DNA of 44,413 nt. Origin: a virus. The stretch lies in the IMG/VR virus record IMGVR_UViG_3300046690_000430, positions 1 to 44,413 of that record. One strand, written 5' to 3'. The position numbers were made by a program, and so were the translations under genes. Below are positions 5,188 through 20,215 of the stretch, in pieces. Every line of letters begins with the position of its first letter. Position 1 is the first letter of the stretch. The notes below the pieces were generated by a model. That model was given only the letters and a program-made list of their open reading frames with translations. It was not told the DNA's origin and did no database searches.

Positions 5188-6119
5188 AACGGCAATCCAG
5201 GGGTAACGTTAGTACGGTGACCGATCAGCTTCACGTATTCGGGGTTGAGCTCGATCAGGATTGCACTGCGCCCAAGTTCAAGCGCGACCTGTCCGGTTGT
5301 GCCGGAGCCTCCGAACGGGTCAAGAACGGTTCCCCCGAGTGGGCACCCGGCGAGGATGCAAGGCTTGATCAGGTCTGGTGGGAAGGTGGCGAAGTGGGCT
5401 TCGGAGTAGCAATTCGTATTTACGGTCCAAACGCTCCTCTTGTTTCTGGTTCCCTCTTTCCCAAAGTCTCCAACCTCCCGATCGCAATCATTTCGACCTG
5501 TGCCATTTCGGGATGAGGGGGAAACTGAACGGCGATGCACGTAACTGGACGTTTCGCTAATCGCCTCCGCGTCGTAATAATACTTGGCGCTCTTGCTGAG
5601 CAGGAAAATGTATTCGTGGGCTTTGGTGGGGCGATCGGTAACGCTCTCAGGCATTGGGTTGGGTTTGTGCCAGATGATATCTGAGCGCAGATACCATCCG
5701 TCAGCCTGCAGCGCGAAGGCGACGCGCCAGGGAACACCAACGAGATCTTTTGACTTTAATCCTGGCAGCGCCATGCGGTTCGGCTGACAGACCGGGAAGC
5801 TTCCCTCATCGATCACCTTATTCGATTTCCCGAAACAATCTCCGCCAATGCTCCGGCCGGAGCCTGCTCCGGTGGCGTAACAGTCCCCGAGGTTCAGCCA
5901 GAGTGTGCCGTCATCTCGTAGCACGCGCTTAACCTCTCGGAAACCTTTAACGAGCTTCTCAACGTACTCCTGCGGAGTCTTCTCAAGCCCGAGTTGGCCC
6001 TTCACTCCGTAATCCCTCAACCCCCAATACGGCGGAGACGTAACGCAGCAGTGCACGGATTGATCCTCAAGCAGGCCCGATCCTTTGATCCAATCGGCGG
6101 TGATTACCCTGAGACTCAT
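5184..6119 (-). CDS. DNA methyltransferase, SPPY (beta-class) type
   Basis: From the ATG at 6119 the protein is 311 residues, a normal size for a phage N4-cytosine/N6-adenine methyltransferase. The catalytic motif TSPPYW is at residues 27-32 and the SAM-binding motif DPFGGSGTTG follows late, near 267-276; catalytic motif first and SAM motif last is the beta-class order. TSPPY is more often seen in N4-cytosine enzymes, DPPY in N6-adenine ones, so N4-cytosine is favoured but not certain. The upstream frame extends to 6224, but the internal ATG overlaps the preceding stop (ATGA) and suits the family N-terminus. No restriction endonuclease lies beside it, so it probably protects phage DNA or alters expression. 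A Gly/Ser/Arg-rich stretch near residues 195-215 is the likely target-recognition insert. Confidence 0.88.
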   Translation of the reverse strand: MSLRVITADWIKGSGLLEDQSVHCCVTSPPYWGLRDYGVKGQLGLEKTPQEYVEKLVKGFREVKRVLRDDGTLWLNLGDCYATGAGSGRSIGGDCFGKSNKVIDEGSFPVCQPNRMALPGLKSKDLVGVPWRVAFALQADGWYLRSDIIWHKPNPMPESVTDRPTKAHEYIFLLSKSAKYYYDAEAISETSSYVHRRSVSPSSRNGTGRNDCDREVGDFGKEGTRNKRSVWTVNTNCYSEAHFATFPPDLIKPCILAGCPLGGTVLDPFGGSGTTGQVALELGRSAILIELNPEYVKLIGHRTNVTPGLPL

Positions 6120-6679
6120 TGCTTTCGGATCCGCGCCGGGAGGAACGTCTGCGCCGGGGTGCGGTAGGTAATGCTGGCGCTTGGAAACGATTCCGCATAC
6201 CCAGGATAGTACGCTGTCGCCCAAAACTCGTATTGCGTGTCAGGCGCGAGCGTGAGCGTTACTTGCAGCGCCCGGCCAGCATCAAACTGGTTTGTCACTC
6301 CCGCGCTCAGGGTGAAAATGTGGTAATACACGTCCGGAGATGGAGACGCATCCCAAGCCAGAGTCACCAGCGCGTACACCGATCGTACCCGGTAGTAAGC
6401 CGGAGCAGGCTCAATAATCTGGTAAGGCTGATTGGCAACGTTGCTCACGACCTGCCAGGAAAGCAGGTTCGAGCTGTAGAGCACGCTCACCGGTACCTGA
6501 TTGGTCCAGAGCAGAACCAGGGAGAGAGACTTGGGCGTTTCCGAGGTGAGCGCTTTTGCTGCTCGAGGAGCAATCTTTGGCGGCAAAGGCACACCCGGTG
6601 CCTGGGAAACATGGGGCACCGGGTGCGCGCAACCGAACAAACAAAGCGCCAGGAGGCTACTCGGTAGTATAACTCTCAC
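6116..6679 (-). CDS. Lipoprotein with fibronectin-III-like domain
   Basis: The favoured GTG start at 6679 has GGAGG nine bases upstream and gives 187 residues. The product begins with a short lipoprotein signal ending LALCLFGC (lipobox Cys at residue 17). A region 'SSNLLSWQVVSN ... YYRVRS' follows, then an FN3-like domain ('VTLAWDASPSPDVYYHIF' through 'YEFWATAYY'). It is expected to be anchored in a host membrane. The 'SNLLSWQ...YYRV' wording is common in Verrucomicrobiota exported proteins. The start lies inside the end of the upstream gene (23-base overlap). A role in surface exclusion is possible. A longer frame from 6763 lacks a sensible start. Confidence 0.7.
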   Translation of the reverse strand: MRVILPSSLLALCLFGCAHPVPHVSQAPGVPLPPKIAPRAAKALTSETPKSLSLVLLWTNQVPVSVLYSSNLLSWQVVSNVANQPYQIIEPAPAYYRVRSVYALVTLAWDASPSPDVYYHIFTLSAGVTNQFDAGRALQVTLTLAPDTQYEFWATAYYPGYAESFPSASITYRTPAQTFLPARIRKQ

Positions 6680-6987: not shown

Positions 6988-7554
6988 TTACTTCCTGCGA
7001 TTTGGCGGCCAATACGGCAGGCCGACAAAATCAAAAATCTCTTTCTCGCTCCCCATCTCTACCCGCTTTGAGTGATCGGTCAGCTTGTGAAAGCCGGAGC
7101 CGTAAGCCTCGAACGAGTACCCCTTTTTATTCGCGGCCATGGTGAGCGCCAGATTCGAGCGCTTGCCCCCGGTGCGAACTACGAGCGCGTTCCACCATTT
7201 CTCAGGGCTCGTGCTAAAGAAATCTACCGGGATGCCTGAGTCAGTGTGAACGGCGAGTTTGTTGAACGGTCCCCAACACTCGGTATCGCGCACGCTCAGG
7301 CGCTTGCTGATGTATCCGGCCGTGATCCATTTGTTGAGCTGCTCATCTACGAGATCCACTTTTGTTTCATCGCCAAATAGGGTGACCGGGATTTTGTAAT
7401 ACTGAGGGATCGCCAGAAACTCGATATCGGAGACGTGACTCAGACCGCGCCGGAGCGACCCGGCGACCTTCAGCCGTTCGCAGTACGGCAGCAGGAGCTT
7501 GTAAATCTCATCTGCCACCTTGAGCGCTTTCTCTCTCGGGAATTTCTCTTTCAC
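6988..7554 (-). CDS. Minimal PolX-like nucleotidyltransferase
   Basis: The 188-residue product matches the palm and thumb of family X DNA polymerases: 'VAGSLRRG' (GS at 32-33), metal carboxylates D43 and E45 in 'SDIEFL', third carboxylate D111 in 'IPVDFF', then 'RTGGKRSNLALTMAANKKGY' and a closing 'FVGLPYWPPNRR'. The 8-kDa lyase domain, the HhH motifs and the PHP exonuclease of bacterial PolX are absent. It probably adds nucleotides in phage DNA repair or end processing. The GTG start at 7554 overlaps the stop of the RHH gene (GTGA), coupling the two. Confidence 0.8.
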   Translation of the reverse strand: MKEKFPREKALKVADEIYKLLLPYCERLKVAGSLRRGLSHVSDIEFLAIPQYYKIPVTLFGDETKVDLVDEQLNKWITAGYISKRLSVRDTECWGPFNKLAVHTDSGIPVDFFSTSPEKWWNALVVRTGGKRSNLALTMAANKKGYSFEAYGSGFHKLTDHSKRVEMGSEKEIFDFVGLPYWPPNRRK

Positions 7555-7771: not shown

Positions 7772-9568
7772 ATGATCGCTTACGGATTATCCTGGCCGGA
7801 GAATTATTCCGAGCTCAACGTTGAGATCGATATGATCCGCGCTCGCGGCAAGCTGGAGCGAAACGGCAAGGTCTACGGTGAGGGGCTCTTCCATCATTAT
7901 CGCCGCATGTTCACGCTCCTTTGGCCGGAGGATGATCACCATCGCTGGAGCGACCTCGGGCTCAAGCGCAAGACGGAGAAGGATATCGTGGTAATGATGG
8001 GCTCCGGCGATTCCAATAAGACTTACCTGAGCTCGAAGTACGTCCTCTGCAACTGGTGGGTGCTGCCCTATAACACGCTCTGGATGATCTCCAGCACGGA
8101 AGCGCGTGGCGCAGAGCTCCGGAATTGGGGTGCGATTAAAGGGCTCTTCAACCGGGCACGCGAGCGCTTTCCCTGGCTGCCGGGCGTGGTCCTCGAGAGC
8201 AAATACTGCATCACGCCGGATAATATCTCCGAAGGCGGCCGTGAGGGGCGCACACTCACCAGGGGGATAATTTTCATTCCCTGCAAGAAAGGCGGAGCGT
8301 GGGTAGGCATGGGCGCTTACGCTGGCATCAAACCTCCCAAGGGCGGCCGCCTCGGGCATTTCGGGGATGAAGTCTCCTTCATGCACCCAACTTTTCTCAA
8401 TGCTTACGCCAACTGGTTCGGTAAAGCTTTTGAGGCAATTCTGGACGGTAACCCAACGGACCTTGATGACCCGCTCTGCATCGCCGCCAAACCTCCCCTC
8501 GGTTGGGAGACGTGGAAGGACAACGGCAAAACCCAGGAATGGGAAAGCTCTTTCTATAATGCTTGGGTGATCGCTTTTGACGGCCGCGACTCGCCCAACA
8601 TGGATTATCCGAAAGAGGGTCCGATTCGATTTCCTTACCTCATCTCGTATAAAAAGCATGATGCCGTGCTCAAGTTGCACGGTCCGGACCATCCCCTTTA
8701 CTGGCAGCAATGCGTAGGCAAACCGCTCCCAGGCGCGGAAAAGTTCCGAGTGATCCCGCATTCACTTCCCGATCAGTGCGGCGCTTACGCCTCCGTAGTT
8801 TGGGAGGGAGCGGATCTCGAGGACATTGTTTCCCTGGACGCAGCGTACGGCGGGGAGGGCGGCGATCGGTGCATCCTCACCCATATCCGCTACGGGCTGG
8901 ACGTGGAAGGCAGGAACGTGATCGAGCTCAAGGCGCAAGTGAACGTCCCCATAAGCCTCGTTAACAATCTGGAGCGCGCCGATATTCAGATCGCACGGTT
9001 CTGCAAAAACTACTGTGAAGGCTACGGCATCCCGCCAAAGAAATTCTACTTCGACGGTCGCTCAACCCTGGCGATCGCGCTCGCGGAAGTGTGGTCCTCA
9101 GAGGTTAACGTTGTGGACTTTGGCGGACCAGCGACCAAGCGCCCGGTGAGCCAGGATGAGTTTGTCACCGATGAACAGACCGGAGCCAAACGGCTCAAGC
9201 GGTGTGATGAGCACTACTCCAAATTCGTTACCGAACTCTGGTTTACGGTCTACTACCTGATGATCGGAAAACAGGCGCGCAACCTCACCAAAGAGCTCGT
9301 GATGGAACTGCGGAGGCGGATCTGGAAATTCGTTGCCCGGCAGCGGATCGAGGTGGAAACCAAAGAGGATATGAAAAAGCGCACGAGCGAGAGCCCTGAT
9401 ATGGGAGACTCTTACGTGATCGCCGTGGAAGGCGCACGCCGCGAAGGCTTTTTGATTGCGCTCCTCAAGGAAAATGTGCAAGCAGAGGAAAATCCTGAGC
9501 ACTGGCTGGATCAGGAAATAGACAACCGGAAGAAATTTTTAGCTAAGCATGAGCTCAAGCACGTTTGA
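7772..9568 (+). CDS. terL: Terminase large subunit (packaging ATPase-nuclease)
   Basis: The 598-residue protein packages DNA into the prohead. The ATPase half shows a deviant Walker A (GSGDSNKT, residues 77-84) and Walker B with catalytic Glu ('LGHFGDEVSF', DE at 199-200). The RNase-H-like nuclease half shows 'IVSLDAAYGG' (D356), 'KFYFDGRS' (D428) and 'SPDMGDSYVIA' near residue 565. Size and motif order fit a normal TerL. The ATG at 7772 has no Shine-Dalgarno sequence. The 975-base minus frame opposite it is a shadow. Confidence 0.9.
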   Translation: MIAYGLSWPENYSELNVEIDMIRARGKLERNGKVYGEGLFHHYRRMFTLLWPEDDHHRWSDLGLKRKTEKDIVVMMGSGDSNKTYLSSKYVLCNWWVLPYNTLWMISSTEARGAELRNWGAIKGLFNRARERFPWLPGVVLESKYCITPDNISEGGREGRTLTRGIIFIPCKKGGAWVGMGAYAGIKPPKGGRLGHFGDEVSFMHPTFLNAYANWFGKAFEAILDGNPTDLDDPLCIAAKPPLGWETWKDNGKTQEWESSFYNAWVIAFDGRDSPNMDYPKEGPIRFPYLISYKKHDAVLKLHGPDHPLYWQQCVGKPLPGAEKFRVIPHSLPDQCGAYASVVWEGADLEDIVSLDAAYGGEGGDRCILTHIRYGLDVEGRNVIELKAQVNVPISLVNNLERADIQIARFCKNYCEGYGIPPKKFYFDGRSTLAIALAEVWSSEVNVVDFGGPATKRPVSQDEFVTDEQTGAKRLKRCDEHYSKFVTELWFTVYYLMIGKQARNLTKELVMELRRRIWKFVARQRIEVETKEDMKKRTSESPDMGDSYVIAVEGARREGFLIALLKENVQAEENPEHWLDQEIDNRKKFLAKHELKHV

Positions 9569-9863
9569 TCGGCACAGCTTCCCCTCTGGCGGGTGGCAGT
9601 TTTTCCAACCCCAAACGAATTGGAGCGCGCCAACTCCGATCTCTTCCACTTTCGATCAGACTGTGATCCTCATCGTGAAGCATCGATTACAGAACCCGGC
9701 GATCACCGCACAGCATAATCTCGCCACCTCCATCGCGGCCGTTGGTGACGAGCTCGAGGCGTACACGCGCCAACGTTTAGGACTCACCCCCCTAACCGCC
9801 TCGGGCTCCTCACCAGGGGCACCGATATCCATAAACCTCGCCGCAAGTTGCTGCGGCCACTAA
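9549..9863 (+). CDS. Tandem paralogue A (short form)
   Basis: The 104-residue product is a shortened copy of the next gene: both share 'FP[SA]GGWQ[FY][FY]Q.QT.W.AP' at the start and '[DN]ELE[AS]Y.R.RLG' about 60 residues on. The short form ends in a divergent Ser/Gly tail with two adjacent cysteines. Its ATG overlaps the terL end by about 20 bases. Function is unknown; position directly after terL suggests a head-assembly or accessory role. Confidence 0.65.
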   Translation: MSSSTFDRHSFPSGGWQFFQPQTNWSAPTPISSTFDQTVILIVKHRLQNPAITAQHNLATSIAAVGDELEAYTRQRLGLTPLTASGSSPGAPISINLAASCCGH

Positions 9864-9870
9864 CCACAAA

Positions 9871-10551
9871 ATGAAACCTGAGTTTTCGCGCACCACATTC
9901 CCGGCCGGAGGTTGGCAGTATTATCAGAGTCAAACCAGTTGGCACGCGCCCAACCCCAAAGGCAACACCTTCGACCAGCAGGTAAACCACATCATCAAAA
10001 TGCGCCGCGACAACCCGGCGATCCTGATCCAGCATCGGCTCTCCGTGGATCCCGCCATTGTCGGCAACGAGCTGGAATCGTATAACCGGATGCGCCTGGG
10101 TATCCCCGCGCACATACAGCCTCCGATGCCGCCACCGGAAAGCGCGCCGCTCCTTTCGGCTCCGGTGAAGTCGGCGATCTCTGCCGTGAAGAAGATCGCG
10201 GCCGGAGCGGCGCTCCTCATGGAATGGGAAGAGAGCGGGTTGCCACCGGTACCTATCGAGAAAGCAGAGGCACGCGCTACCGTCTGCGCCATATGCCCTC
10301 AGAATCAAAAAGGAAAAGCGCTCACGGACATTTTCACGGTACCCGCAGCAAACCGGATCAAAGAGCGGCTCAAGCGCTTGCATGATCTCAACCTCAGCAC
10401 AACCAAAGATCCCGAGCTTTCAACCTGCCAAGCGTGCCTTTGCCCGTTGCAGTTGAAAGTACACACTCCGATCGCGCTCATTCATAAACGGCTCAAGCCG
10501 GAGCAACGCGCAGAGCTGGATCCTGGCTGCTGGATCCTCTCTGAAGCGTGA
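9871..10551 (+). CDS. Tandem paralogue B with Cys-rich C-terminus
   Basis: Residues 1-80 are homologous to the preceding gene product. The rest adds an Ala-rich helix ('SAISAVKKIAAGAALLMEW') and a zinc-binding tail with 'CAICPQN' and 'CQACLCPLQLKVH'. The total is 226 residues. It ends on the GTG of the first glycosyltransferase-like gene (GTGA), so it is translated together with the sugar-modification block. The Cys tail could bind a partner enzyme; this is inference. Confidence 0.65.
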   Translation: MKPEFSRTTFPAGGWQYYQSQTSWHAPNPKGNTFDQQVNHIIKMRRDNPAILIQHRLSVDPAIVGNELESYNRMRLGIPAHIQPPMPPPESAPLLSAPVKSAISAVKKIAAGAALLMEWEESGLPPVPIEKAEARATVCAICPQNQKGKALTDIFTVPAANRIKERLKRLHDLNLSTTKDPELSTCQACLCPLQLKVHTPIALIHKRLKPEQRAELDPGCWILSEA

Positions 10552-11249
10552 TATTGATTGCTTACATCGCCGTTGCAGGCGGACCGTTAACGCACGAGTA
10601 TTGCGCTCGTTTCGTTGGTAGTTTTCTCGCCAACTCCCCAGGCTCTACCAACAAACTGATCGTTGTCTGCAACGGCGATCATCTTCCACTGGAAACCCGG
10701 TGCCTCTTCCTCCCTCTCAACGCCACTTTCCTGATCCGAGATAATGATCCCTCTTGGGATATCGGCGCATTTATGGACGTTGCCAAACAATTCAAACCGG
10801 ATCTCCTCATGTGCTGCGGCGAGACGGTTTATTTTCATCGGCCGGGCTGGCTCGCTCGCATCCATGACGCTTGGCACGATCACGGACCCGGCATCTATGG
10901 CCCGTTCGCGAGCAACCTCGTGCGACCTCACCTCAACACAACTTGTTTCGCCTGCGAAGGCGAATCACTCGCGAGCTACCCAAAGCCTCGGAATCGGCAT
11001 GAGCGCTACCAGTTCGAGCACGGTGCAGATTCCCTCTGGATGCGGATGCACCGCCGCGGCATGGCCGCCCGGCTCGTGACGTGGAACGGCGCTTGGCAGC
11101 CGGAACACTGGCGCTTGCCCGAGAACATTCTTTGGCGCGGAGATCAGAGCAACTGTTTGGCCTACTGCTCACACACAGACCGGTACCGCGCCGCCAAGCC
11201 GGATATGAAAGCCAAGTGGGCAGCCTGGGCCGATCGCCCTTACCGATAA
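10548..11249 (+). CDS. Glycosyltransferase-like protein 1
   Basis: The 233-residue product has an N-terminal Rossmann-like strand (MILIAYIAVAGG), then 'NDPSWDIGAFMDVAKQF', 'PGWLARIHDAW' and a C-terminal 'WRGDQSN'. The same DI[GS]AF ... GWL.R ... GDQ pattern recurs in the gene at 11751, so the two are paralogues. The layout resembles GT-A (GT2-like) enzymes, but no clear DXD motif is seen, so the activity is probable rather than certain. The GTG start overlaps the previous stop. It is the first sugar-related gene of the block. Confidence 0.55.
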   Translation: MILIAYIAVAGGPLTHEYCARFVGSFLANSPGSTNKLIVVCNGDHLPLETRCLFLPLNATFLIRDNDPSWDIGAFMDVAKQFKPDLLMCCGETVYFHRPGWLARIHDAWHDHGPGIYGPFASNLVRPHLNTTCFACEGESLASYPKPRNRHERYQFEHGADSLWMRMHRRGMAARLVTWNGAWQPEHWRLPENILWRGDQSNCLAYCSHTDRYRAAKPDMKAKWAAWADRPYR

Positions 11250-11253
11250 TTTT

Positions 11254-11754
11254 ATGAAGACCGGACCGAAACCAAACCCAAACGCCAACAGGAAGCATCC
11301 ACTCTATGCAACTTGGAAAGGGATGCGGAATCGGTGCAACAATCCAAACGGGCATGATTACGCGCTCTATGGGGGCAGGGGAATTGAGATTTGCTCCGAT
11401 TGGGAAGATTTCAAAACCTTCGCAAGGGATATGGGACCAAAGCCAAGCCGGAAACACACCATTGATCGAAAAGACCGGGACGGTGATTACTCTCCAGAGA
11501 ATTGCAAATGGGCAACTCAATCAGAGCAAATGGCCCATACGTCCCGCAATCGATTCTTAGAGGCAGACGGCAAGAAGATGATCCTGGCGGAGTGGGCGCG
11601 AATACTAAATGTCAGCCACAAACTGATCACGGACAGGATCGATCGAGGGTGGACCGTTGAGAATGCTCTTTTTGAAGGAAAGCGGCCGAGTGGAAATCGC
11701 AGCTTCGAGTCGCACGTAATCGGGTGGAAGAAAAGAAGAAAATCCTCAATATGA
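11254..11754 (+). CDS. Homing-type HNH/AP2-like endonuclease
   Basis: The 166-residue product matches a widespread phage mobile endonuclease pattern: 'HPLYATWKGMRNRCNNPN', 'YGGRGIEICSDWEDF', 'DMGPKPSRKHTIDRKD' and 'YSPENCKWAT'. A C-terminal helix-turn-helix-like segment ('WARILNVSHKLITDRI') probably reads DNA. It sits between two paralogous glycosyltransferase-like genes and ends on the ATG of the second (ATGA), consistent with insertion as a free-standing homing gene. Confidence 0.8.
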   Translation: MKTGPKPNPNANRKHPLYATWKGMRNRCNNPNGHDYALYGGRGIEICSDWEDFKTFARDMGPKPSRKHTIDRKDRDGDYSPENCKWATQSEQMAHTSRNRFLEADGKKMILAEWARILNVSHKLITDRIDRGWTVENALFEGKRPSGNRSFESHVIGWKKRRKSSI

Positions 11755-12431
11755 AAATCACCGTAGTGTACGTCTTTCCAATTTTCGGAGGGCACTTCAT
11801 TGACGCTGCCGAAAGGTTTATAGCGACCTACAATCTCAATCCTCCAGGCATTGATCATCAGCTCTTATTCATATCTAACGGTGGACCTCCATCGGTTGAG
11901 ATGCGGAGCTTAGCTCAAGCCTGCGATCATGAGGTGGACTGGTTTGAGCATGACAACAGGGCTTACGATATAAGCGCCTTCCAAGCTGCTGCACAATCTG
12001 TGCCCTGCGATATGATGGTCTTCTTCGGAAACAACGCTTACCTCCGAGGCGAGGGCTGGCTCAAGCGCATGGCAGAAGCTTTCGTGACGCACGGTCCCCA
12101 TCACCTTTACGGGTGCATGGGCAATGATGGCGATTCGCGTTTCGGAGTCGCGCCGCACATCCGCACAACTGGGTTTTTCACCTCGCCGATGATGATGAAC
12201 CTCTACCCGATGCGAGTTACCCGGCCGGAACATCGTTACCCGGCAGAGCATGGGCCAATGTGCCTCACCTCGTGGTTTAAGGGCCAAGGTCACCGGGCGA
12301 TCATCGTGACGTGGACTGGTGAGCATGATTGGCCCTGGGACGCAATACCGGGCGGGTTTCACCAAGGCGACCAGCACGCACTTTTGAGCGGCGATAAAAA
12401 TAGCTGCCCTCCTTACTACCCTTACTCATGA
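11751..12431 (+). CDS. Glycosyltransferase-like protein 2
   Basis: The 226-residue product, a paralogue of the protein at 10548, starts MKITVVYVFPIFGG. It carries 'AYDISAFQAAAQ', 'GEGWLKRMAEAF', 'IRTTGFFTSP' and 'GGFHQGDQHALL'. Fold type (GT-A) is inferred from strand-helix order. The ATG overlaps the HNH stop. A second copy of the same enzyme type suggests two sugar additions or two acceptors. Confidence 0.55.
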   Translation: MKITVVYVFPIFGGHFIDAAERFIATYNLNPPGIDHQLLFISNGGPPSVEMRSLAQACDHEVDWFEHDNRAYDISAFQAAAQSVPCDMMVFFGNNAYLRGEGWLKRMAEAFVTHGPHHLYGCMGNDGDSRFGVAPHIRTTGFFTSPMMMNLYPMRVTRPEHRYPAEHGPMCLTSWFKGQGHRAIIVTWTGEHDWPWDAIPGGFHQGDQHALLSGDKNSCPPYYPYS

Positions 12432-12790
12432 AACCAACTGCAGAGCCAATTTCCTCAATCCGGTGCGATCAGCTTCTGGATTGGATGAAGAGCAATCTGA
12501 AGCGCGCCTGTAGCGAACCTTTACGAAGGGGGAGGCGGCCAAATGCCGTGAAGGGTTTTCTCTCAAAGTTTGATCAGTTCGATATGGCAGCAAACGGGAT
12601 GCTTTGCTGCGTTGATCAAATATTACGCACTGAAGAGGCGGTGCATGTGGTTCAATCCATTGCGATTGCCTGCCGACTTTTCAAGCTCAAGATCGATCAC
12701 GTCGATGCCAGCAACACGCTTTTCTTCAAAGGGAACGCAATCTCTAACGAGCGGAGAAACAAAATCTTCATCCTTTTCAAGGACGCATGA
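12428..12790 (+). CDS. Unknown 120-residue protein in sugar block
   Basis: Both ends use ATGA overlaps, so it belongs to the operon. The product has an N-terminal helical part with 'LKRACSEPLRRGRRP' (basic) and a helical core 'HVVQSIAIACRLFKLKID'. No family or active-site motif was seen. It lies between two glycosyltransferase-like genes. Confidence 0.6.
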   Translation: MKPTAEPISSIRCDQLLDWMKSNLKRACSEPLRRGRRPNAVKGFLSKFDQFDMAANGMLCCVDQILRTEEAVHVVQSIAIACRLFKLKIDHVDASNTLFFKGNAISNERRNKIFILFKDA

Positions 12791-13470
12791 AACCCATCGT
12801 TATTTTCTATCACTGTTACCTGTTCACCGGAGAGCCTCCGGATCTACTCGCGTCTGCATATGCCGTAGTTGAGGATCAGATGCGCCGCCTCATGGAAAGC
12901 GGACTCTCCGCGGCCGCTTCCGAAATGATCGTTGGTCTGAACGGAGGAATCGAGAGCATGGATGTTGCAAACCTCCTGATGCCTCGCGAGGCAAAGATCG
13001 TTTTACACGGGCTCAATTCCAAATGCGAAAACCCTACGCTCCTGCTCCTCGAGCATTGGCTCAGAGATCATCCTGGCGAGGCGGACATTCTTTACTTCCA
13101 TGCGAAATCGAGCTCGCACGATGGCTCTACCGAGTACGGACAGTTCGATCAGAAATGGATGCAGTGCATGATGCGCCATTGCATCGATAACTGGCGGCAG
13201 TGCGTCTCGGACCTCGCCACTCATGAAGCAGTTGGGTGCCACTGGATGACCGGGCAAGGTTGGGATCACAGCCAGCACTATTTTGCCGGTACCTTCTGGT
13301 GGGCTCGAGCGAGCTACCTGCGCACGCTTCCGAGCATCATGCTCCGTGAGCGGATCAAAACCTCAGGGCTTGGCAGTGCCGAGAGCCGTTACGAAGCTGA
13401 GGTTTACATAGGCAACGGGCCAAAGTTGCCCACGATCAAAGACTATCACCCAGGCCCGATCAGTCATTGA
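12787..13470 (+). CDS. Glycosyltransferase-like protein 3 (different family)
   Basis: The 227-residue product has 'ILYFHAKSSSH', 'FAGTFWWARASYLRTLP' and 'SRYEAEVYIG'. This series is typical of a group of uncharacterised bacterial and viral glycosyltransferase-like proteins (YFH.KG ... GNFWW ... R.E.E). It is not closely similar to the two earlier paralogues. Overlap with the previous gene (ATGA) ties it to the block. Donor and acceptor are unknown. Confidence 0.6.
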   Translation: MKPIVIFYHCYLFTGEPPDLLASAYAVVEDQMRRLMESGLSAAASEMIVGLNGGIESMDVANLLMPREAKIVLHGLNSKCENPTLLLLEHWLRDHPGEADILYFHAKSSSHDGSTEYGQFDQKWMQCMMRHCIDNWRQCVSDLATHEAVGCHWMTGQGWDHSQHYFAGTFWWARASYLRTLPSIMLRERIKTSGLGSAESRYEAEVYIGNGPKLPTIKDYHPGPISH

Positions 13471-13473
13471 GCG

Positions 13474-13482
13474 TGCTATAAT
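13474..13482 (+). promoter_or_regulatory. Extended -10 promoter, leaderless start candidate
   Basis: TGCTATAAT is a perfect extended -10 lying five bases before the ATG at 13488, with no -35 at the proper distance. Transcription would begin at about the ATG itself, giving a leaderless mRNA for the radical SAM gene and the two methyltransferases after it. Chance occurrence cannot be excluded. Confidence 0.4.
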
Positions 13483-13487
13483 TCCCG

Positions 13488-14558
13488 ATGACTCCAGAAC
13501 TGATCAGGGATTACGACGAATCGACCCGGCCGCTCGTGGAAGGTGGCGGCGCAATCAGCGCTAAAGAGGCGGCGATGAAATCCTGGCGCTACTTCCTCGA
13601 GATCAATTCCGCCTGTAATCTCAAATGCCCGACCTGCACCAAAGGCAATCAGGGAACGGGTTACGAGCATCAGACCGGGATCATGGAGCCTGAGCTCATG
13701 GAGGCGTGCATAGACAAGATCGCGGCCGAGAACCCCAAAGCGATCGTTTTCCTCTACGGCAACTCTGAGCCGTTCCTGCATCCGCGCTTGCCGGAGTGCA
13801 TCGCGGCCGTGAAGCGCCGCGGCCTGCGGTGCGAGCTCTCCACCAACCTAAATTACGTGCAGCGCCTGGATGATACTCTGGCCGCCAAGCCCGATTTCAT
13901 GATCGTTTCGCTGTCCGGTTTCACCCAGGAGGTTTACGTCAAGGGCCACGCCGGGGGAAATATCGATAAGGTGAAGCGCAACATGGAGCTTTTAGGCGAG
14001 GCGAACGGCCGCGCCAATCCGAGGATCGAGATCAATGTCAATTACCACATCTACAAGGATAACCAGCACGAGTTAGAGCTGATGCGGACCTTTGCTCACA
14101 ACTGCGGATTAGGTCTGTTCACGAGCAAAGCGCGTGCGATCTCAATGGAGAATGCGATCCAGTATTGCCGGGAGAAAGAGGGCGCGATCGATGGTTACGA
14201 GGTGCAGCCGGGCCGACCGGACTGGAATGCAATCCTACCGCCACCCTCGCCGCAGTGGCGTGAGACAATGGATCGGCTCCTGATCCCTCCGACCGAGGCG
14301 CGCCAGATGTACGCGCATTACCCGGTGCAACCTGTGTGCCCGGTGGGTGCAGGCGGCATTTTCACTTTCATCCGGCACGATGGTAAGACTCAGCTCTGCG
14401 CGTGCGTGGCCGACCGGAGGATCACTCTCGGGGATTACCTGAAAACCTCCGCGGAAGAATTGATCGAGCAACGCCAGGGGCACGCCATTTGCAAACAGTG
14501 CATCAAATATAGGCTGAACCTCTACTTTATGATTGCAGACCGCGAGAAATGGGATTGA
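13488..14558 (+). CDS. Radical SAM enzyme with SPASM-like tail
   Basis: The 356-residue protein has the radical SAM cluster motif ACNLKCPTC (Cys 43, 47, 50) in a TIM-barrel-like sequence ('FLYGNSEPFLHP' as the GGE-type SAM motif region). The C-terminus has extra cysteines: 'VCPVGAGG' near 284, 'LCACVADR' near 305 and 'ICKQCIKY' near 335, like a SPASM auxiliary Fe-S domain. An alternative start is the ATG at 13575 (MKSWRYF), just ahead of the conserved core. SPASM enzymes modify peptides or sugars by radical chemistry; the sugar-methyltransferase neighbours favour a carbohydrate or a glycosylated target. Such an enzyme inside a phage late region is unusual. Confidence 0.85.
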   Translation: MTPELIRDYDESTRPLVEGGGAISAKEAAMKSWRYFLEINSACNLKCPTCTKGNQGTGYEHQTGIMEPELMEACIDKIAAENPKAIVFLYGNSEPFLHPRLPECIAAVKRRGLRCELSTNLNYVQRLDDTLAAKPDFMIVSLSGFTQEVYVKGHAGGNIDKVKRNMELLGEANGRANPRIEINVNYHIYKDNQHELELMRTFAHNCGLGLFTSKARAISMENAIQYCREKEGAIDGYEVQPGRPDWNAILPPPSPQWRETMDRLLIPPTEARQMYAHYPVQPVCPVGAGGIFTFIRHDGKTQLCACVADRRITLGDYLKTSAEELIEQRQGHAICKQCIKYRLNLYFMIADREKWD

Positions 14559-15160
14559 TGAAAACCTTAGACCAAATCGGGATTGCTCACGGCACGGACA
14601 AGGCCAGCGAATTTACGCGCACCTACGCGAAACCTCATGACTATTTGCGTCATATGGATCGCCTCTTTACCGAGATGCGATTCGAGCCGATCAAGCTGCT
14701 GGAGATTGGGGTTGGTGGCGGGGAATCGATCCGGACGTGGCTCGAATACTTCACCCACGAGGGCACGCAGATCCGAGGGATCGACCTCGTAGAGAAAACA
14801 AACCCGTGGAACACGCCCGGCGAGAGCCCTGATAAGCGCTACCAGTTCCTGCAGGGCAACCAGAGCGATCAGATCATGTGGAAGTGCGCGATCGCGAATT
14901 GGGGAAGAGACTTTGATATCGTGATCGATGATGGTTCGCACGAGCCCAAGGACGTTATTGAGACTTACTCCGCTCTTTGGCCGTGCCTCGTTAGGGGAGG
15001 GTACTACTGCATAGAGGATCTCGGGTGCGGTTTTACCAGCGCCGGGTACCCCTCACATTACGAGTGGCTTAACTCGCTTAACGTTGGTCTGAACACATGG
15101 CGCAAAGAGATTGACTCGATCACTTTCTCTCGCGAGCTTGCAATTCTGCGTAAATCGTAG
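14558..15160 (+). CDS. SAM-dependent methyltransferase, sugar O-methyltransferase type
   Basis: The 200-residue product has motif I 'LLEIGVGGGESIRTWLEYF', then 'RGIDLVEK', 'DIVIDDGSHEPKD' and 'GGYYCIEDLG', the pattern of metal-dependent sugar O-methyltransferases such as MycE. IDDGSH supplies the likely metal and base residues. The ATG at 14558 shares its A with the radical SAM stop (TGATG); another ATG lies nine bases upstream. It probably methylates a hydroxyl of the sugar added by the upstream transferases. Confidence 0.75.
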   Translation: MKTLDQIGIAHGTDKASEFTRTYAKPHDYLRHMDRLFTEMRFEPIKLLEIGVGGGESIRTWLEYFTHEGTQIRGIDLVEKTNPWNTPGESPDKRYQFLQGNQSDQIMWKCAIANWGRDFDIVIDDGSHEPKDVIETYSALWPCLVRGGYYCIEDLGCGFTSAGYPSHYEWLNSLNVGLNTWRKEIDSITFSRELAILRKS

Positions 15161-15171
15161 ATAACAGCGGC

Positions 15172-16479
15172 ATGTACCGCGTTCACTCCCGATGCCGCGC
15201 CTGTAACTTCGGACCTCCAATCCTGCCAGGAGGCACCAAAGCCGGAAGCTCTGGCGATCGTCTCCTACCCGCATTCAACCTCGGGCTGCAGCCCCTCGCC
15301 AATGACTTTTGCCTAGATGACGAAGAGCGCGCCGGAGCTGCTCCCCTCGAGGTGCTCGTTTGCCCTCAATGCGGCTTGGCTCAGCTCAGCGTAGTTGTCT
15401 CTCCGGACATTCTTTACCGGAAAAATTATCCGTACGTGACCAGCAAGAGCGAGACGATGCGCCAACACTTTGAGATTCTTTGGGAGGACTGCATTAAGCT
15501 CGCCAAATCCAGCAAGGTTCTGGAGATCGGCTCCAATGATGGAGACTTCCTCGCCTTCTGCCGCAACCGTGGCGCAGAAGACGTGATCGGGATCGAGCCT
15601 GCCGAAAACCTCGCGGCGGTGGCAGAGCGCCAGGGGGTCCGCACCATCCGAGATCTGTTCGGTCCGGTATCCGCCTCCATGGCCGCTCAGGCGATGCCCG
15701 AACCGGGGATTATTTTCGCCCGGCACGTTTTTTGCCATGTGCCCGAGTGGCAAGCATTCATGGCAAACCTCACGCTCCTGGCCGGGCCTGATACGATCGT
15801 TTGCATCGAAGTGCCTTACGTGATGGATCAGCTCAAGGCCGGGAGCTTTGACCAGATTTACCACGAGCATTGCAGCTACCTCTCCATCCGTGCGATCAAA
15901 GCGCTCCTCAATGGCGGCGCTTTTTGCCTGAGCGATATCAAGCATTACACGGTTCACGGCGGAGCGATCGCTCTCATCTTGAAGCGCCGCTCACCGGACA
16001 CCAAAGCGTCTCAAGCTGTGCTCGATTACCTCGAGGCGGAAGGGAACTCTCTCCAGGCATGGGAAGCGTTCGCGACCAAGAGCAACGATTCGATCCATAG
16101 GCTCAAAGGGTTGATCCGGTCACTTCGGCGCGAAGGCAAACGGGTGGTAGGCTTTGGCGCTTCCGCAAAGAGCACAGTCTGGATCAACGCCATGGGTTTA
16201 ACCCGGCAGGATCTGTCCTGCGTTTACGATTGCACGCCCAACAAGTGGTACCGGTACATTCCCGGCACGGATATCCCGGTAGTGAACGAGGGCGCTTTTT
16301 ACGTAGACGATCCGGAGTATGCCGTCATTTTCTCGTGGAACTTCGCTCGAGAGATCATCGATAAGAACCGCAAATGGATGGAGGGCGGAGGGCAGTTCAT
16401 TGTCCCGATCCCCGATATCACGATCCACCGGGTTGATCACTCCTGGCAGCCTTACAGCGGGGACACGGTAAGCGTTTAG
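15172..16479 (+). CDS. Sugar C-methyltransferase, TylC3/NovU type
   Basis: The 435-residue protein shows the three-part family layout: an N-terminal zinc domain (CRAC at 8-11, CPQCGLAQL near 64-72), a central SAM domain ('VLEIGSNDGDFLAF', 'GIEPAENLA', 'FARHVFCHVPEW') with the conserved 'YHEHCSYLS', and a C-terminal domain ('VVGFGASAKSTVW', 'YIPGTDIPV'). Length equals the family norm of about 410-430. Known members methylate C-3 of NDP-4-keto-6-deoxyhexoses. No NDP-sugar synthase or dehydratase is present here, so the sugar nucleotide would come from the host or another phage region. Confidence 0.85.
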   Translation: MYRVHSRCRACNFGPPILPGGTKAGSSGDRLLPAFNLGLQPLANDFCLDDEERAGAAPLEVLVCPQCGLAQLSVVVSPDILYRKNYPYVTSKSETMRQHFEILWEDCIKLAKSSKVLEIGSNDGDFLAFCRNRGAEDVIGIEPAENLAAVAERQGVRTIRDLFGPVSASMAAQAMPEPGIIFARHVFCHVPEWQAFMANLTLLAGPDTIVCIEVPYVMDQLKAGSFDQIYHEHCSYLSIRAIKALLNGGAFCLSDIKHYTVHGGAIALILKRRSPDTKASQAVLDYLEAEGNSLQAWEAFATKSNDSIHRLKGLIRSLRREGKRVVGFGASAKSTVWINAMGLTRQDLSCVYDCTPNKWYRYIPGTDIPVVNEGAFYVDDPEYAVIFSWNFAREIIDKNRKWMEGGGQFIVPIPDITIHRVDHSWQPYSGDTVSV

Positions 16480-16520: not shown

Positions 16521-18842
16521 ATGAAGACCTCGGAAACTCCTGGCGGCCGTTGGAACGACGCTTCAAAGGTGAATCAGCAAGTATGGGACTGGCGACTTGC
16601 TGATCTGCCACGCGGCGGACAGCGCACCATCCTCGATCGCCTTTACAACGGGGATCCGCCTTACGATGAAGCGCTCGCCGAGGAAAACCAGATCCAGATC
16701 AACCGCAACAATCTTGAAGGTCCAAACCTGATCGGCAATGCGCGCCGCCAGTGGAACGCGGCCATGCTCAAGCCCGGCAACTTCTTTACCGTGGCCGTCA
16801 ACCGTGGACCCAAGATCAAGCGCCGGGAATACGGGCACTCGATCACCAAGGTCATGAACCGGGTACTCCGAAAATCGATGCAGTATAAGGAGCAGCGCAG
16901 ACAGACCGGAGCGGCAACCATGCTGCACGGAGTTGGCCCTACGACCTGGGACACGCGAAAAAAAATGGTTCCAAAGCTGATGCACATGAGCAGCATTATG
17001 GTACCAAGCGAAACCCTGATCGATATGAGCAACCTCGATCGGTTCGCAATCTTCCGCGAGTACACCCCGGCGCAACTCTACTCAATGACGCACGGTCCTC
17101 GGGTGGATCCCGGTTGGCAGATGCAAACGGTTATGCAGCAGTGGGAATACGTTCGGCAGATGACGCAGAAGCAGCCAAACGCCACCGCATACCAGTACAT
17201 GCCGGAGCGGATCGAGGAGCTCTCCAAACAGGATCTCGGATTTTGGGGCTCTGATGCCGTGCCTACGATCGATTGTTGGGATTTCTATTTCCGCGGCGAG
17301 AAGGATACGGATGGATGGTACCGGCGCGTGATTCTCGATTGGGGAGTTACCGAGGGTAGCGAGCTATCCAACCTCACCAGGGAAGCGCCAAAGGAACCCA
17401 AAAATGACAGCTTTCTTTACACCTCGGGCAATCGCCGTTTCGCGAACTCCCTCAATGAGATCATCCATTTCCAGTTTGCCGATTGTTCCGCCGTTGCTCC
17501 ATTCACCTACCACGCTGTACGCTCCCTGGGTTGGATGCTTTGGGGTGTGTGCGACCTTGAGAACCGGCTCCACTGCAAATTTAATGAAGCGATTTTCGAG
17601 CAGCTCCTTTGGTTTTTCAGAGTGGCCGGAAACTCGGATATGGTTCGCCTGAAAAAGGCGCTCTTTAGCCAGATGGGAGTAATCCCTCAAGGCGTTTCCA
17701 TGGTTAAGAATGATGAGCGTTACAAGCCGGATGCGGCTCTCATCGAAATGGCTTTTGGCCGGAACCAGTCAGCCATGCAGCGCTTCTCCTCGAGCTTCAC
17801 CCAGGACTTTGCCAATGGGCAAGGCGGCCGCGAGATGACCGCAACCGAAACCATGGCGCGAGTGAACACCGTCAATCAGCTTGTGTCCGGAATGATGCAG
17901 CTCTCGTATGAGTACGAGGAGGCAAAGGATTACGAGGTTTGCCGCCGCGCTTGCATCAAGCACAACTCCGATCCTATGGCGCGAGCGTTCCAGAAGGGAT
18001 GCCTCGAGGAGAAGGTACCGCCGGAGATTCTGGACGTGGAATGTTGGGAAGTGACCGAGGAGCGCACCCTGGGTGCAGGCAATAAAACGATCGAGATGGC
18101 TCAGGTTCAGTTCCTGCAGCAGATCCGAAAGAACCTCGGACCGGAAGCGCAGCGCAAGGTTGACCATATTTCCATTGTGTCCGCCCTGGACGATGCCGCG
18201 CTCGCGGAAGACTTGGCACCCGTGGAAGGCCAGCAGCAGCTCAGCCGTTCGATGCACGACGCGCAGCTCGCCACCGATCGCCTCATGCGTGGACTCATCT
18301 TTGTCCCGGCTCCGGATATGGTTTACGAGGATTACGTTAAGGTGTGGCTCACTGACCTTTCCCAAATGGTGCAGGAGGCAGTCAAATCAGGCGGAATGGC
18401 TTCTGCTCAGGATATTCTTGGGTGGCAGAACATGCAGAAAACGATCATGGCATTCCTCGAGATTATGGCTCAGGACACGGACGAAAAGGAAAAGGTCCGT
18501 GGCTACGCTCAGGCGCTATCGCAGGAAATGAACTTCGTTAAAGCCTTCACCCAACGGCTGCAGCAGAAGATCCAGGCACAGCAGAAGAACGGGCAGCAGG
18601 GCAACCCCCTGGCGATCAAACAGGCGGAAGCGGCGCTCGATCTCCAGACCCAGGCCAAAAAGGATCAGCTCAAGCTTACCAACATGGAGAAGAGCCACTC
18701 TCAGCGCACCGCGCAGCGCCAAGTACAATTCGAGCTCGAACAGCAGCGAGAAGATCGCCGGGCCAATGCCGACAATCGGCGCAAAGGCCAGGAGCACGCG
18801 CTCGATATCACCGCTAACAGGCTCAAAGCCTTTCAGGAGTAG
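16521..18842 (+). CDS. Portal protein
   Basis: The 773-residue protein is the size of P22-type podovirus portals. It begins with a helical clip/wing region ('LPRGGQRTILDRLYNGDPPY'), followed by a mixed core and a long helical stem and barrel rich in Gln, Lys and Glu (about residues 640-773, 'AQRQVQFELEQQ'). It forms the ring at one head vertex where terminase docks and the tail attaches. Position before scaffold and capsid genes supports this. The ATG at 16521 has no clear ribosome binding site. Confidence 0.8.
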   Translation: MKTSETPGGRWNDASKVNQQVWDWRLADLPRGGQRTILDRLYNGDPPYDEALAEENQIQINRNNLEGPNLIGNARRQWNAAMLKPGNFFTVAVNRGPKIKRREYGHSITKVMNRVLRKSMQYKEQRRQTGAATMLHGVGPTTWDTRKKMVPKLMHMSSIMVPSETLIDMSNLDRFAIFREYTPAQLYSMTHGPRVDPGWQMQTVMQQWEYVRQMTQKQPNATAYQYMPERIEELSKQDLGFWGSDAVPTIDCWDFYFRGEKDTDGWYRRVILDWGVTEGSELSNLTREAPKEPKNDSFLYTSGNRRFANSLNEIIHFQFADCSAVAPFTYHAVRSLGWMLWGVCDLENRLHCKFNEAIFEQLLWFFRVAGNSDMVRLKKALFSQMGVIPQGVSMVKNDERYKPDAALIEMAFGRNQSAMQRFSSSFTQDFANGQGGREMTATETMARVNTVNQLVSGMMQLSYEYEEAKDYEVCRRACIKHNSDPMARAFQKGCLEEKVPPEILDVECWEVTEERTLGAGNKTIEMAQVQFLQQIRKNLGPEAQRKVDHISIVSALDDAALAEDLAPVEGQQQLSRSMHDAQLATDRLMRGLIFVPAPDMVYEDYVKVWLTDLSQMVQEAVKSGGMASAQDILGWQNMQKTIMAFLEIMAQDTDEKEKVRGYAQALSQEMNFVKAFTQRLQQKIQAQQKNGQQGNPLAIKQAEAALDLQTQAKKDQLKLTNMEKSHSQRTAQRQVQFELEQQREDRRANADNRRKGQEHALDITANRLKAFQE

Positions 18843-18919: not shown

Positions 18920-20215
18920 ATGAAAGAGACTTCCGATGTAGTTGCGTGCGTGATCGATCGCGGCGTGTTCTTCTCCGCGGCAGAGCGTCTCGCTCGAGAC
19001 TTCAAGAAGGTTTACTATCACCGCCCAAATGGTGAGGACTCAACCACGTTTGCCCAATCCATCAAAGGCGACGGTCATCCCAATGTTGAGTACACCGATG
19101 ATTTTTGGCCGCTCAAAGATGAGATCGATCTCTTCGTCTTTCCGGACTGCGTTGACGGTGGGTTGCAAGTGTTCCTCGAGAGCCAGGGAAAAGCAGTTTG
19201 GGGAAGCAAGCGCGCAGGCGAGCTCGAGCGGATGCGCGGAAGATGGATCGGTGTCTGCGAAAAATACGGGATGCCGGTACCCGAAACCCATGAGGTGATC
19301 GGGCTTGATAAACTCAAGCTCTTCCTGATGCAGCACGAGGGGGAAACTTACTTCGTCAAAATCAGCAAGTACCGCGGCGATATGGAGACGTGGAAAGCGG
19401 AGGATCCGGAGGAGATCGCCAACCAAATTGATTACCTGAGGCTGAAATTCGGACCGTTTCAGGATCTGATCCGGTTCTACGTCCAGAAATCGATCGACAC
19501 GGAGATCGAGGGGGGCTGTGACACCTACTTTTGTGCCGGGCAATTCCCATCAAAGATCGTCCTGGGGTACGAGAAGAAAGCCAAAGGCTACTTTGCCACT
19601 TGGCGCGAGCGCGCCGAAATGCCTCCCGAAATTTGGGCTGTTACCGAGAAGATCGCTCCACTCCTGGCAGGCCACAACTATTGCAACCTGATCACGAGCG
19701 AGGTGCGCGTTGCAGACGGCAAATCGTACTGGCTGGATCCGTGCTTCCGGTTCCCGTCCCCGGCGAGTGAGCAGCAGCTCGAGCTCTACGGCAACTTTGG
19801 CGATATCGTTTGGCAGGGTGCCAACGGGGTTTTCGTTGAGCCTCAGATGACCGCCAAGTTTTCAGGCGGCGCGGTGATTTCTTACACCGGGCAAAGGGAC
19901 TGCTGGAAGGCGGTAAGCGTGCCCGAGGAGGTGCGCGATAGCGTGAAACTCTTTGCTTACGGGTACCACGAAGGTTACGCAGTTTTCCCTCCAAGCCAGG
20001 AGCCGGAGTCAATCGGATGGGCTGTAGCGACAGCGGACACGCCTGCAGGAGTGCTTGACGGGCTGAAGGAAATTAAAGAAAGTCTCGCCGATGCACCGGT
20101 TGAGCTACACCTCACTGAGATCGCCGACCTCTTCACTCAAATCGAAAGCGCGGAAGAGCAGGGTATCCCGTTCAGTGAGCACGCAATACCGGATCCTGCA
20201 GACGTGATCGAATGA
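18920..20215 (+). CDS. ATP-grasp-fold protein
   Basis: The 431-residue product reads as an ATP-grasp ligase of the PurD/Ddl kind: a Rossmann-like start, then 'IDLFVFPDCVDGGLQVFLES', 'KAVWGSKRAGELERMRGRW' and 'EKYGMPVPETHEV' (typical preATP-grasp to ATP-binding transition), 'YFVKISKYRGDMETW' (nucleotide-binding Lys and loop) and later 'YWLDPCFRFPSP'. ATP-grasp enzymes join a carboxylate to an amine or thiol. The gene lies between portal and scaffold, where no ligase is usually found. Its start abuts the acidic micropeptide. A structural protein built on a decayed ATP-grasp fold is an alternative. Confidence 0.7.
   Translation: MKETSDVVACVIDRGVFFSAAERLARDFKKVYYHRPNGEDSTTFAQSIKGDGHPNVEYTDDFWPLKDEIDLFVFPDCVDGGLQVFLESQGKAVWGSKRAGELERMRGRWIGVCEKYGMPVPETHEVIGLDKLKLFLMQHEGETYFVKISKYRGDMETWKAEDPEEIANQIDYLRLKFGPFQDLIRFYVQKSIDTEIEGGCDTYFCAGQFPSKIVLGYEKKAKGYFATWRERAEMPPEIWAVTEKIAPLLAGHNYCNLITSEVRVADGKSYWLDPCFRFPSPASEQQLELYGNFGDIVWQGANGVFVEPQMTAKFSGGAVISYTGQRDCWKAVSVPEEVRDSVKLFAYGYHEGYAVFPPSQEPESIGWAVATADTPAGVLDGLKEIKESLADAPVELHLTEIADLFTQIESAEEQGIPFSEHAIPDPADVIE

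Follow-up and report, generated by a model that had tools for sequence, protein, structure and literature searches.

A predicted glycan-modification cassette between the terminase and putative portal genes of an uncultured phage

The DNA analyzed here (the window) comprises the 44,413 nucleotides of IMG/VR record IMGVR_UViG_3300046690_000430. A rightward operon begins at terL (position 7772), opposite in direction to the leftward genes. From terL to the putative portal gene adjacent open reading frames overlap by 4–31 nt or are separated by gaps of 4–41 nt throughout, and no clear terminator was seen in this interval. A sequence-only reading of the window had described a largely coupled sugar-modification and radical SAM block between these two genes. 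The block is present, with open reading frames and coupling as claimed, and its features are listed in Table 1, where GT12 is the label of the family holding GT1 and GT2. The enzyme classes given in that reading hold, but an HNH endonuclease inside the block had been overlooked, and the span assigned to the block (9549–16479) starts with two genes (9549–10551) that are ancestral terL neighbors and not sugar genes.

Table 1. Features of the interval from terL to the putative portal gene
Feature	Position	Strand	Basis or remark
TerL (large terminase), upstream anchor, first gene of rightward operon	7772..9568	+	Motifs; PHROG 2 matches of relatives
o104, short paralog of the o226 N-terminal domain	9549..9863	+	Ends in conserved SCCGH
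o226, N-terminal domain and Cys-rich C-terminal domain	9871..10551	+	
GT1, GT12-family GT-A-fold glycosyltransferase, GTG start	10548..11249	+	Paralogy with GT2; family alignment
HNH homing-type endonuclease, mobile insertion	11254..11754	+	PHROG 3377, E 2e-53
GT2, GT12-family glycosyltransferase	11724..12431	+	AF2 model, Foldseek
o120, orphan ORF, 120 aa	12428..12790	+	
GT3, NDP-sugar/nucleotidyl-transferase (GT-A-like) fold, probable glycosyltransferase	12787..13470	+	
Radical SAM enzyme (rSAM), Twitch type	13488..14558	+	PF04055 over cut-off; Cys pattern
OMT, resembling the catalytic domain of MycE/demethylmacrocin sugar O-methyltransferases	14549..15160	+	PF13578; motif
CMT, NDP-sugar 3-C-methyltransferase (TylC3/TcaB9 family)	15172..16479	+	PF08421, PF13489 and PF08484
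Putative portal, downstream anchor	16521..18842	+	Position and size only

The TerL assignment rests on motifs visible in the sequence and on two relatives, L030 (1e-7) and L090 (7e-11), which weakly match the PHROG 2 terminase. The 773-aa putative portal gave no match in PHROGs, in the PDB or in hhalign comparisons with the N4 and T7 portals, the latter being weak tests with single-sequence templates. TerL, the putative portal and GT2 had no match among 50,697 phage records. The o104 and o226 genes form a duplicated terL-neighbor family that is also found in block-less relatives, where o226 directly precedes the portal, and they therefore fall outside the sugar set. In freshwater phages with split o226 homologs a programmed frameshift was considered and rejected, because the second ORF starts at an ATG of its own and a conserved Cys motif closes the first. 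The HNH endonuclease is missing from this spot in the close relatives L003, L004 and L010 and is located elsewhere in L006, and no homolog of o120 was found in the relatives. Two further assignments were discarded: the terL interruption in L010 and L011 as a known intron family (no Rfam match) and 18920–20215 as ATP-grasp-like (no PDB match and no significant Pfam match).

GT1 and GT2 are paralogs, as had been proposed (29% identity, E 6e-20). The AF2 model of GT2 (pLDDT 95.7) has a GT-A fold, with Foldseek matches in the PDB to WrtF, ppGalNAc-Ts and SpsA (E 4e-6 to 1e-5). We therefore class both proteins as predicted GT-A-fold glycosyltransferases, GT2 by its model and GT1 by homology. Inspection of their alignment by eye revealed no obvious DXD at the expected strand end; this motif is missing from some GT-A enzymes. 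GT3 is unrelated to GT2 by BLASTP, in keeping with its earlier description as a glycosyltransferase of another type. Its fold comparison returned both nucleotidyltransferases and glycosyltransferases (TM 0.33–0.52), and it is a probable glycosyltransferase of GT-A-like fold. Sequence-profile searches of the PDB gave no convincing match for GT1/GT2 or GT3. GT12 and GT3 are two transferase families without Pfam names.

The identification of CMT as a TylC3-type C-methyltransferase was confirmed by matches over cut-off to its Zn-binding N-domain (PF08421), SAM domain (PF13489) and C-terminal Methyltransf_14 domain (PF08484), and its closest PDB match is the D-mycarose 3-C-methyltransferase (E 3e-71). 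CMT retains the zinc CxxC pairs and the YHEH motif. The Tyr, Glu and His positions that we take to be catalytic, on the basis of the TcaB9 literature (YxEH and an upstream Tyr), are invariant in 29 of 29 relatives; Tyr-86, Tyr-230, Glu-232 and His-233 are kept in every relative with a residue there. CMT would methylate an NDP-4-ketosugar at C-3, and the Rml genes neighboring it in relatives support this assignment. OMT matches PF13578, with MycE (E 1e-15) and demethylmacrocin O-methyltransferase as its nearest PDB entries, so the label O-methyltransferase-like also stands. Its IDDGxH...ED motif (DDGSH and ED; Asp-127, Asp-128, His-131, Asp-157) is invariant in 21 of 21 relatives, and the metal-binding and catalytic roles of these residues are presumed from the MycE literature. 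At 203 aa, OMT covers only residues 191–330 of the 419-aa MycE chain and does not have the full-length architecture with an N-terminal domain.

The enzyme previously called radical SAM/SPASM-like is a radical SAM protein (PF04055 over cut-off) but not a SPASM one. The core CX3CX2C (Cys-43, Cys-47 and Cys-50) is kept in 31 of 31 sequences, and one auxiliary-cluster set (Cys-284, Cys-304, Cys-335 and Cys-338) is invariant in the relatives, with one further near-invariant Cys, indicating a Twitch-like arrangement. There was no match to the SPASM Pfam and no 7-Cys SPASM domain with two auxiliary clusters. The best NCBIfam matches are SPASM maturases, far under cut-off.

The block is syntenic in relatives at 48–77% protein identity with dN/dS of 0.04–0.39, so it is not a chance arrangement. 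Among IMG/VR relatives a cassette lies between terL/o226 and the portal in many lineages of uncultured soil phages, the portals of which diverge to about 32% identity. Absence of the block from related phages, with virion mass and host surface unchanged, had been named as evidence against the interpretation. The first half of this condition occurs, in that one freshwater clade cleanly lacks the block and has o226 abutting the portal. As the block-wide alignment was too diverse for pattern scans, another alignment was used instead. The cassette is modular, with gain and loss of parts: GT12 and GT3 occur in all cassettes examined (GT3 in 31 of the 31 tabulated), and rSAM, OMT and CMT are variable. 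CMT is present in 16 of these cassettes and absent from 15. rSAM shows no association with CMT (12/16 CMT-positive versus 8/15 CMT-negative cassettes).

The window contains no PF01370 or PF00483 gene, which agrees with the earlier observation that NDP-sugar synthesis genes are lacking. The suggestion that a host sugar is used also fits, in that a relative has RmlA, RmlB and RmlD-like genes in the same block and the window phage does not. In that relative, L030, genes for RmlA (score 371, cut-off 361), RmlB (378, cut-off 365), an RmlD-like protein and CMT are all adjacent. The RmlD-like proteins score 54–87 bits, below the TIGR01214 equivalog cut-off of 224, and are best regarded as RmlD-like SDRs only. 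Their genes occur in six of the 31 cassettes (L030 and five others), all CMT-positive (6/16 versus 0/15; Fisher p 0.011, not corrected for phylogeny). Because relatives hold either RmlA-RmlB-RmlD-like-CMT or RmlD-like with CMT, the likeliest sugar is a 3-C-methyl-6-deoxyhexose formed via dTDP-4-keto-6-deoxyglucose, an intermediate that the window phage would need to obtain from its host.

Similar genes were found at the same site in an unrelated phage. L234/L235, with a Mu-type portal and a PHROG terminase, has GT12-rSAM-CMT between its own terL and portal, and its rSAM and CMT nest within the trees of the window phage's family. Because the L234 trio is encoded on the other strand from terL and portal, it need not be expressed late there; no block-less close relative of L234 was found. 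In L240, a similar set lies among the structural genes. Among 84,980 genomes scanned, three GT12 loci were found, each with a CMT next to or near the glycosyltransferase, and Rml-type or nucleotidyltransferase genes lay in the surroundings of two of these loci. Cellular GT12 is rare (1/396 genomes in the phylum of the Acidobacteria MAG and 6/396 in that of the Actinobacteria MAG, mostly weak matches) and therefore gives little information on host or origin. The polysaccharide-type clusters in which cellular homologs lie point to surface glycans as a probable ancestral use.

We favor, with confidence and doubt in about equal measure, the reading that the block is a modular, late-expressed, cytoplasmic glycan cassette that decorates virion (head) proteins. 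Late expression is suggested by the terL-led rightward operon, the translational coupling and the lack of a clear terminator before the portal. CMT would add a methyl group at C-3 of a nucleotide-linked 4-keto-6-deoxyhexose, which the host would supply here and which RmlA/RmlB of the phage would make in one relative. The methylated product would be reduced by a host reductase, or by the phage RmlD-like enzyme in several relatives. GT1, GT2 and GT3 would then assemble a short glycan from the methylated sugar and other sugars, OMT would O-methylate an exposed hydroxyl, and rSAM may alter the sugar or acceptor further. One or several virion (head) proteins are the likeliest acceptor and would receive the glycan in the cytoplasm as particles assemble; the benefit may be, for example, shielding, stability or adsorption. 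Of the roles first proposed, glycosylation and methylation of the virion is preferred because the block occupies a late head-gene location, which a diverse phage lineage retains and an unrelated phage shares, and because it has neither membrane nor flippase components. Weighing against this reading are the polysaccharide-type setting of the cellular homologs, the opposite strand of the L234 trio, the lack of an obvious DXD in GT12, the dual fold matches of GT3 and the missing association of rSAM with CMT.

Alteration of host LPS, capsule or exopolysaccharide with branched methyl sugars, which would block superinfection or the rebinding of progeny to debris, is rather unlikely, yet it is the main alternative and deserves to be taken seriously. 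Cellular GT12 and CMT homologs sit in sugar and polysaccharide clusters, and in cyanophages the relatives of GT3 and CMT are grouped with NDP-sugar and glycosyltransferase genes, in clusters of a type often interpreted as serving surface modification (PMC9602691). However, the GtrA flippase and membrane glycosyltransferase of the serotype-conversion Gtr system are absent (no PF04138 in 15 records, in which controls worked; no strong membrane segment in the block proteins), no polymerase was seen in the block, the block is placed in a head operon, and a similar set recurs beside terL and portal in an unrelated phage.

It is improbable that rSAM is instead a peptide or protein maturase, RiPP-like or cross-linking a virion protein, with the glycosyltransferases acting separately. 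The maturase matches, the gain and loss of rSAM independently of CMT and the conserved Cys pair at the C terminus of o104, the candidate substrate, would fit such a role; against it, o104-type genes also occur in phages without rSAM, and rSAM accompanies GT12 and CMT in unrelated phages. The company that rSAM keeps in the cassette narrows its candidate substrate.

We regard decoration of phage DNA with hypermodified bases, which would resist restriction, as very unlikely. Phage glycosyltransferases can act on DNA, according to PMC12619734, which cites Pyle et al. 2024, and the window encodes an N6/N4 DNA methylase. However, no thymidylate synthase/hydroxymethylase-family gene (PF00303) was found in 16 records, in which controls worked, and no C5-methylase (PF00145) in the window; a TET/JBP search was empty but uninformative, as its positive controls were empty too. 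A secondary-metabolite-like deoxysugar pathway yielding a glycosylated small molecule is scarcely credible, since no aglycone-forming genes were seen in the cassettes and the terL/portal location is constant, even though the nearest PDB entries of CMT and OMT are macrolide-sugar enzymes.

If decoration of the virion is correct, the cassette would build a phage sugar coat of a rare kind; to our knowledge, phage virion glycosylation has been demonstrated in few cases, such as mycobacteriophages. It would also caution against automatically reading such genes as host auxiliary metabolism. The conservation of the cassette over deep divergence, its recognizable sugar chemistry and its defined insertion site allow a concrete prediction, namely that soil-phage heads bear a glycan with a 3-C-methyl-6-deoxyhexose. 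More tentatively, this widespread lineage may build a branched, C- and O-methylated, rSAM-modified deoxysugar head glycan from a mobile "glyco-capsid" module taken up at the terL-portal site by unrelated phages, with an undescribed radical SAM reaction on a sugar or glycoprotein.

The best viral fold match of GT2 is a rhamnan-synthesis-F-like protein (TM 0.61), of the GT-A type of RgpF; no match was seen at the sequence level (Pfam, PDB HMM). Cyanophages S-SRM01, DSL-LC02 and S-SCSM1 carry genes resembling GT3 or CMT, or comparable sets, alongside glycosyltransferases, epimerases and other modifiers. Their clusters differ in lying in much larger genomes, in their glycosyltransferase sets and in their presumed action on the host surface. 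The TylC3/TcaB9 pathways (mycarose, tetronitrose) share the RmlA-RmlB-CMT-4-ketoreductase logic, the CMT domains and the catalytic residues; here, in contrast, CMT is phage-borne, stands alone in the window next to packaging genes, and has a predicted product. Cereose of Bacillus cereus spores is another branched deoxysugar of this type. Coxiella virenose is likewise modeled as the product of a branched-deoxysugar pathway (PMC3539893). In mycobacteriophages Che8 and Rita, glycans on capsid and tail-tube subunits are reported (Freeman et al. 2023, as described in PMC11256854 and PMC12619734). Their glycosyltransferases are phage-encoded, as here, where the virion glycan is proposed from genes. 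Those of Maravista are located close to the genome's 3' end, whereas the present set lies between terL and portal and comprises other glycosyltransferase families, a radical SAM enzyme and a sugar C-methyltransferase, with Rml pathway genes in one relative.

The 44,413-base IMG/VR virus record has its recognisable genes running leftward up to ~7.55 kb and rightward from terL. Between terL and the putative portal, the sugar-modification and radical SAM genes proposed from the sequence-only reading were all found in place, with corrections to individual assignments. Adjacent genes of the block overlap by 4-31 nt or are 4-41 nt apart, and a consensus scan of the interval detected no clear rightward terminator. 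In base composition the block resembles the remaining phage (55.8% versus 56.8% GC), with the HNH endonuclease and the 120-aa orphan somewhat below the rest. The gene following the portal had no match in the PDB and matched LAL_C2 only at E 0.09; homologues follow the portal in many block phages (contigs L018, L021, L026, L028, L154 and L230), and none was found in the record of the related phage L004.

Features of the window, in gene order, and of compared phage contigs
Feature	Position	Assignment
DNA methylase	5184-6224 (-)	N6/N4 type, PF01555, E 1e-51; leftward arm
Polymerase-like protein	6988-7554 (-)	DNA polymerase beta thumb-like, PF14791, E 2e-10; leftward arm
terL	7772-9568	
o104	9549-9863	terL neighbour
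o226	9871-10551	terL neighbour
GT1	10548-11249	putative glycosyltransferase
HNH endonuclease		
GT2	11724-12431	putative glycosyltransferase
Orphan		120 aa
GT3	12787-13470	putative transferase
rSAM	13488-14558	radical SAM enzyme
OMT	14549-15160	O-methyltransferase-like
CMT	15172-16479	sugar C-methyltransferase
Portal	16521-18842	putative, 773 aa
Post-portal gene	18920-20215	431 aa, ATP-grasp-like by eye
Co-chaperonin	22586-22945	GroES-like, PHROG 3188, E 7e-11; rightward operon
He_PIG protein	31780-33237	putative Ig domains, E 5e-18
terL insertion, L010	594-1471	~0.9 kb
terL insertion, L011	3499-4376	~0.9 kb
CMT homologue, L200	326023-327213	
GT3 homologue, L200	327416-327970	

GT1 and GT2 are paralogues (29% identity) with no match in Pfam, PHROG or NCBIfam. 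An AlphaFold2 model of GT2 from a 35-row alignment had a pLDDT of 95.7; its top Foldseek matches in the PDB were overwhelmingly GT-A glycosyltransferases, upholding the earlier view of the pair, and its top viral match was a rhamnan-synthesis-F-like protein (TM 0.61). The GT3 model (pLDDT 91.8) has an NDP-sugar/nucleotidyl-transferase fold; it is likely to be a glycosyltransferase, a nucleotidyltransferase being the less probable alternative. A 735-kb uncultured phage (L200, LR756501.1) carries another CMT-GT3 pairing, ~200 bp apart.

rSAM contains CX3CX2C and four further cysteines, all kept without exception among aligned relatives. This pattern upholds the radical SAM assignment and suggests one auxiliary cluster of the Twitch type instead of a SPASM domain. 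Both methyltransferase assignments held: OMT corresponds to the catalytic domain of the MycE/demethylmacrocin enzymes, which methylate macrolide sugars, and CMT belongs over its full length with the sugar 3-C-methyltransferases of TylC3/TcaB9 type. Among relatives, neither enzyme varies in its catalytic motifs.

Relatives were collected by scans of IMG/VR with terL and with o226, neither of which favours the block, and many more were added using block genes. Close relatives keep the entire block in unchanged order; it is absent from a clade of dozens of contigs (freshwater by our guess, the block clade being soil by impression), which read terL-o226-portal, with -58 to +8 nt separating the abutting o226 and portal, and contain no sugar gene. 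The o104/o226 family (9549-10551, and contigs L083-L147) occupies part of the terL-portal interval. Phages lacking the block have it as two overlapping ORFs, of which the first is a short domain ending SGCRxCGR and the second, starting at an ATG of its own, a Cys-rich protein; the block clade has a duplicate and, in addition, a fused version. Separately, terL of two contigs is interrupted at a common place, around residue 201-211, by a putative intron or mobile element with no Rfam intron match.

Among 31 tabulated cassettes the GT1/GT2 family (GT12) and GT3 occur in 31 each, figures biased upward because the cassettes were partly found via those genes, rSAM in 20, OMT in 18, CMT in 16 and an RmlD-like gene in six. 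On a 41-row portal tree, in which block-phage portals diverge to ~32% identity, all phages without the block group together and one change of state suffices, versus at least seven changes for CMT and at least eight for rSAM. The site and the glycosyltransferase pair are therefore old, while there is turnover of the tailoring enzymes. Purifying selection acts on the block genes (dN/dS 0.04-0.39). Between close relatives, synonymous divergence of rSAM, GT3 and OMT exceeds that of neighbouring genes, suggesting module exchange, which the HNH endonucleases, found at varying positions within and around the block, could drive.

The cassette also occurs elsewhere. L234 and L235, two contigs of an unrelated phage, have a Mu-type portal (PF06074, E 1e-35) and a terminase matched in PHROG; GT12-rSAM-CMT lies between these two genes, on the other strand. 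The annotation is that of L234, and L235 has an identical terL. The rSAM and CMT of this phage nest within the window-family trees, so the cassette has moved between phages and has settled beside terL and portal twice. In L240, GT, rSAM and CMT lie amid virion structural genes, and in L031 GT12-rSAM lies farther along the head region.

Neither an NTP-transferase nor an epimerase/dehydratase gene is present in the window, in agreement with the earlier remark that NDP-sugar synthesis genes are missing. In the block of the related L030, four genes are adjacent: RmlA (371 bits, cut-off 361), RmlB (378, cut-off 365), one for an RmlD-like reductase, and CMT. Two more genes there encode a family-2 glycosyltransferase and a protein that by eye looks GT9-like. 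An RmlD-like gene adjoins or lies near CMT in L021 and L023, and is confined to CMT-positive cassettes (6/16 versus 0/15, p 0.011, uncorrected for kinship). These sets match the gene logic proposed for virenose, namely thymidylyltransferase, 4,6-dehydratase, 3-C-methyltransferase and 4-ketoreductase (PMC3539893), making a 3-C-methyl-6-deoxyhexose the likely product. The window's phage would borrow host dTDP-4-keto-6-deoxyglucose and a host reductase.

The block works like a phage glycan-decoration cassette, and the earlier interpretation is partly supported; attachment to the virion is proposed from the genes. Action on surface glycans is indicated by cyanophage clusters and by cellular homologues: when 84,980 genomes of bacteria and archaea were scanned with the GT2-type family, three loci emerged, all with CMT adjacent or near and two surrounded by dehydratase, RmlC, aminotransferase or nucleotidyltransferase genes. 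However, the block enzymes all look soluble, a search of 15 records for GtrA found no flippase, and the site lies among the head genes of the rightward operon. The simplest account is that a virion protein is glycosylated directly in the cytoplasm. Glycosylation of DNA is disfavoured because no base-hydroxymethylating genes were found (thymidylate-synthase family in 16 records, C5-methylase in the window). The He_PIG protein may be an exposed part of the virion and is a candidate acceptor of the glycan. Mycobacteriophage capsid and tail-tube subunits are reported to bear glycans (Freeman et al. 2023, as cited in PMC11256854 and PMC12619734), a precedent for the present cassette, which would add a radical SAM step.
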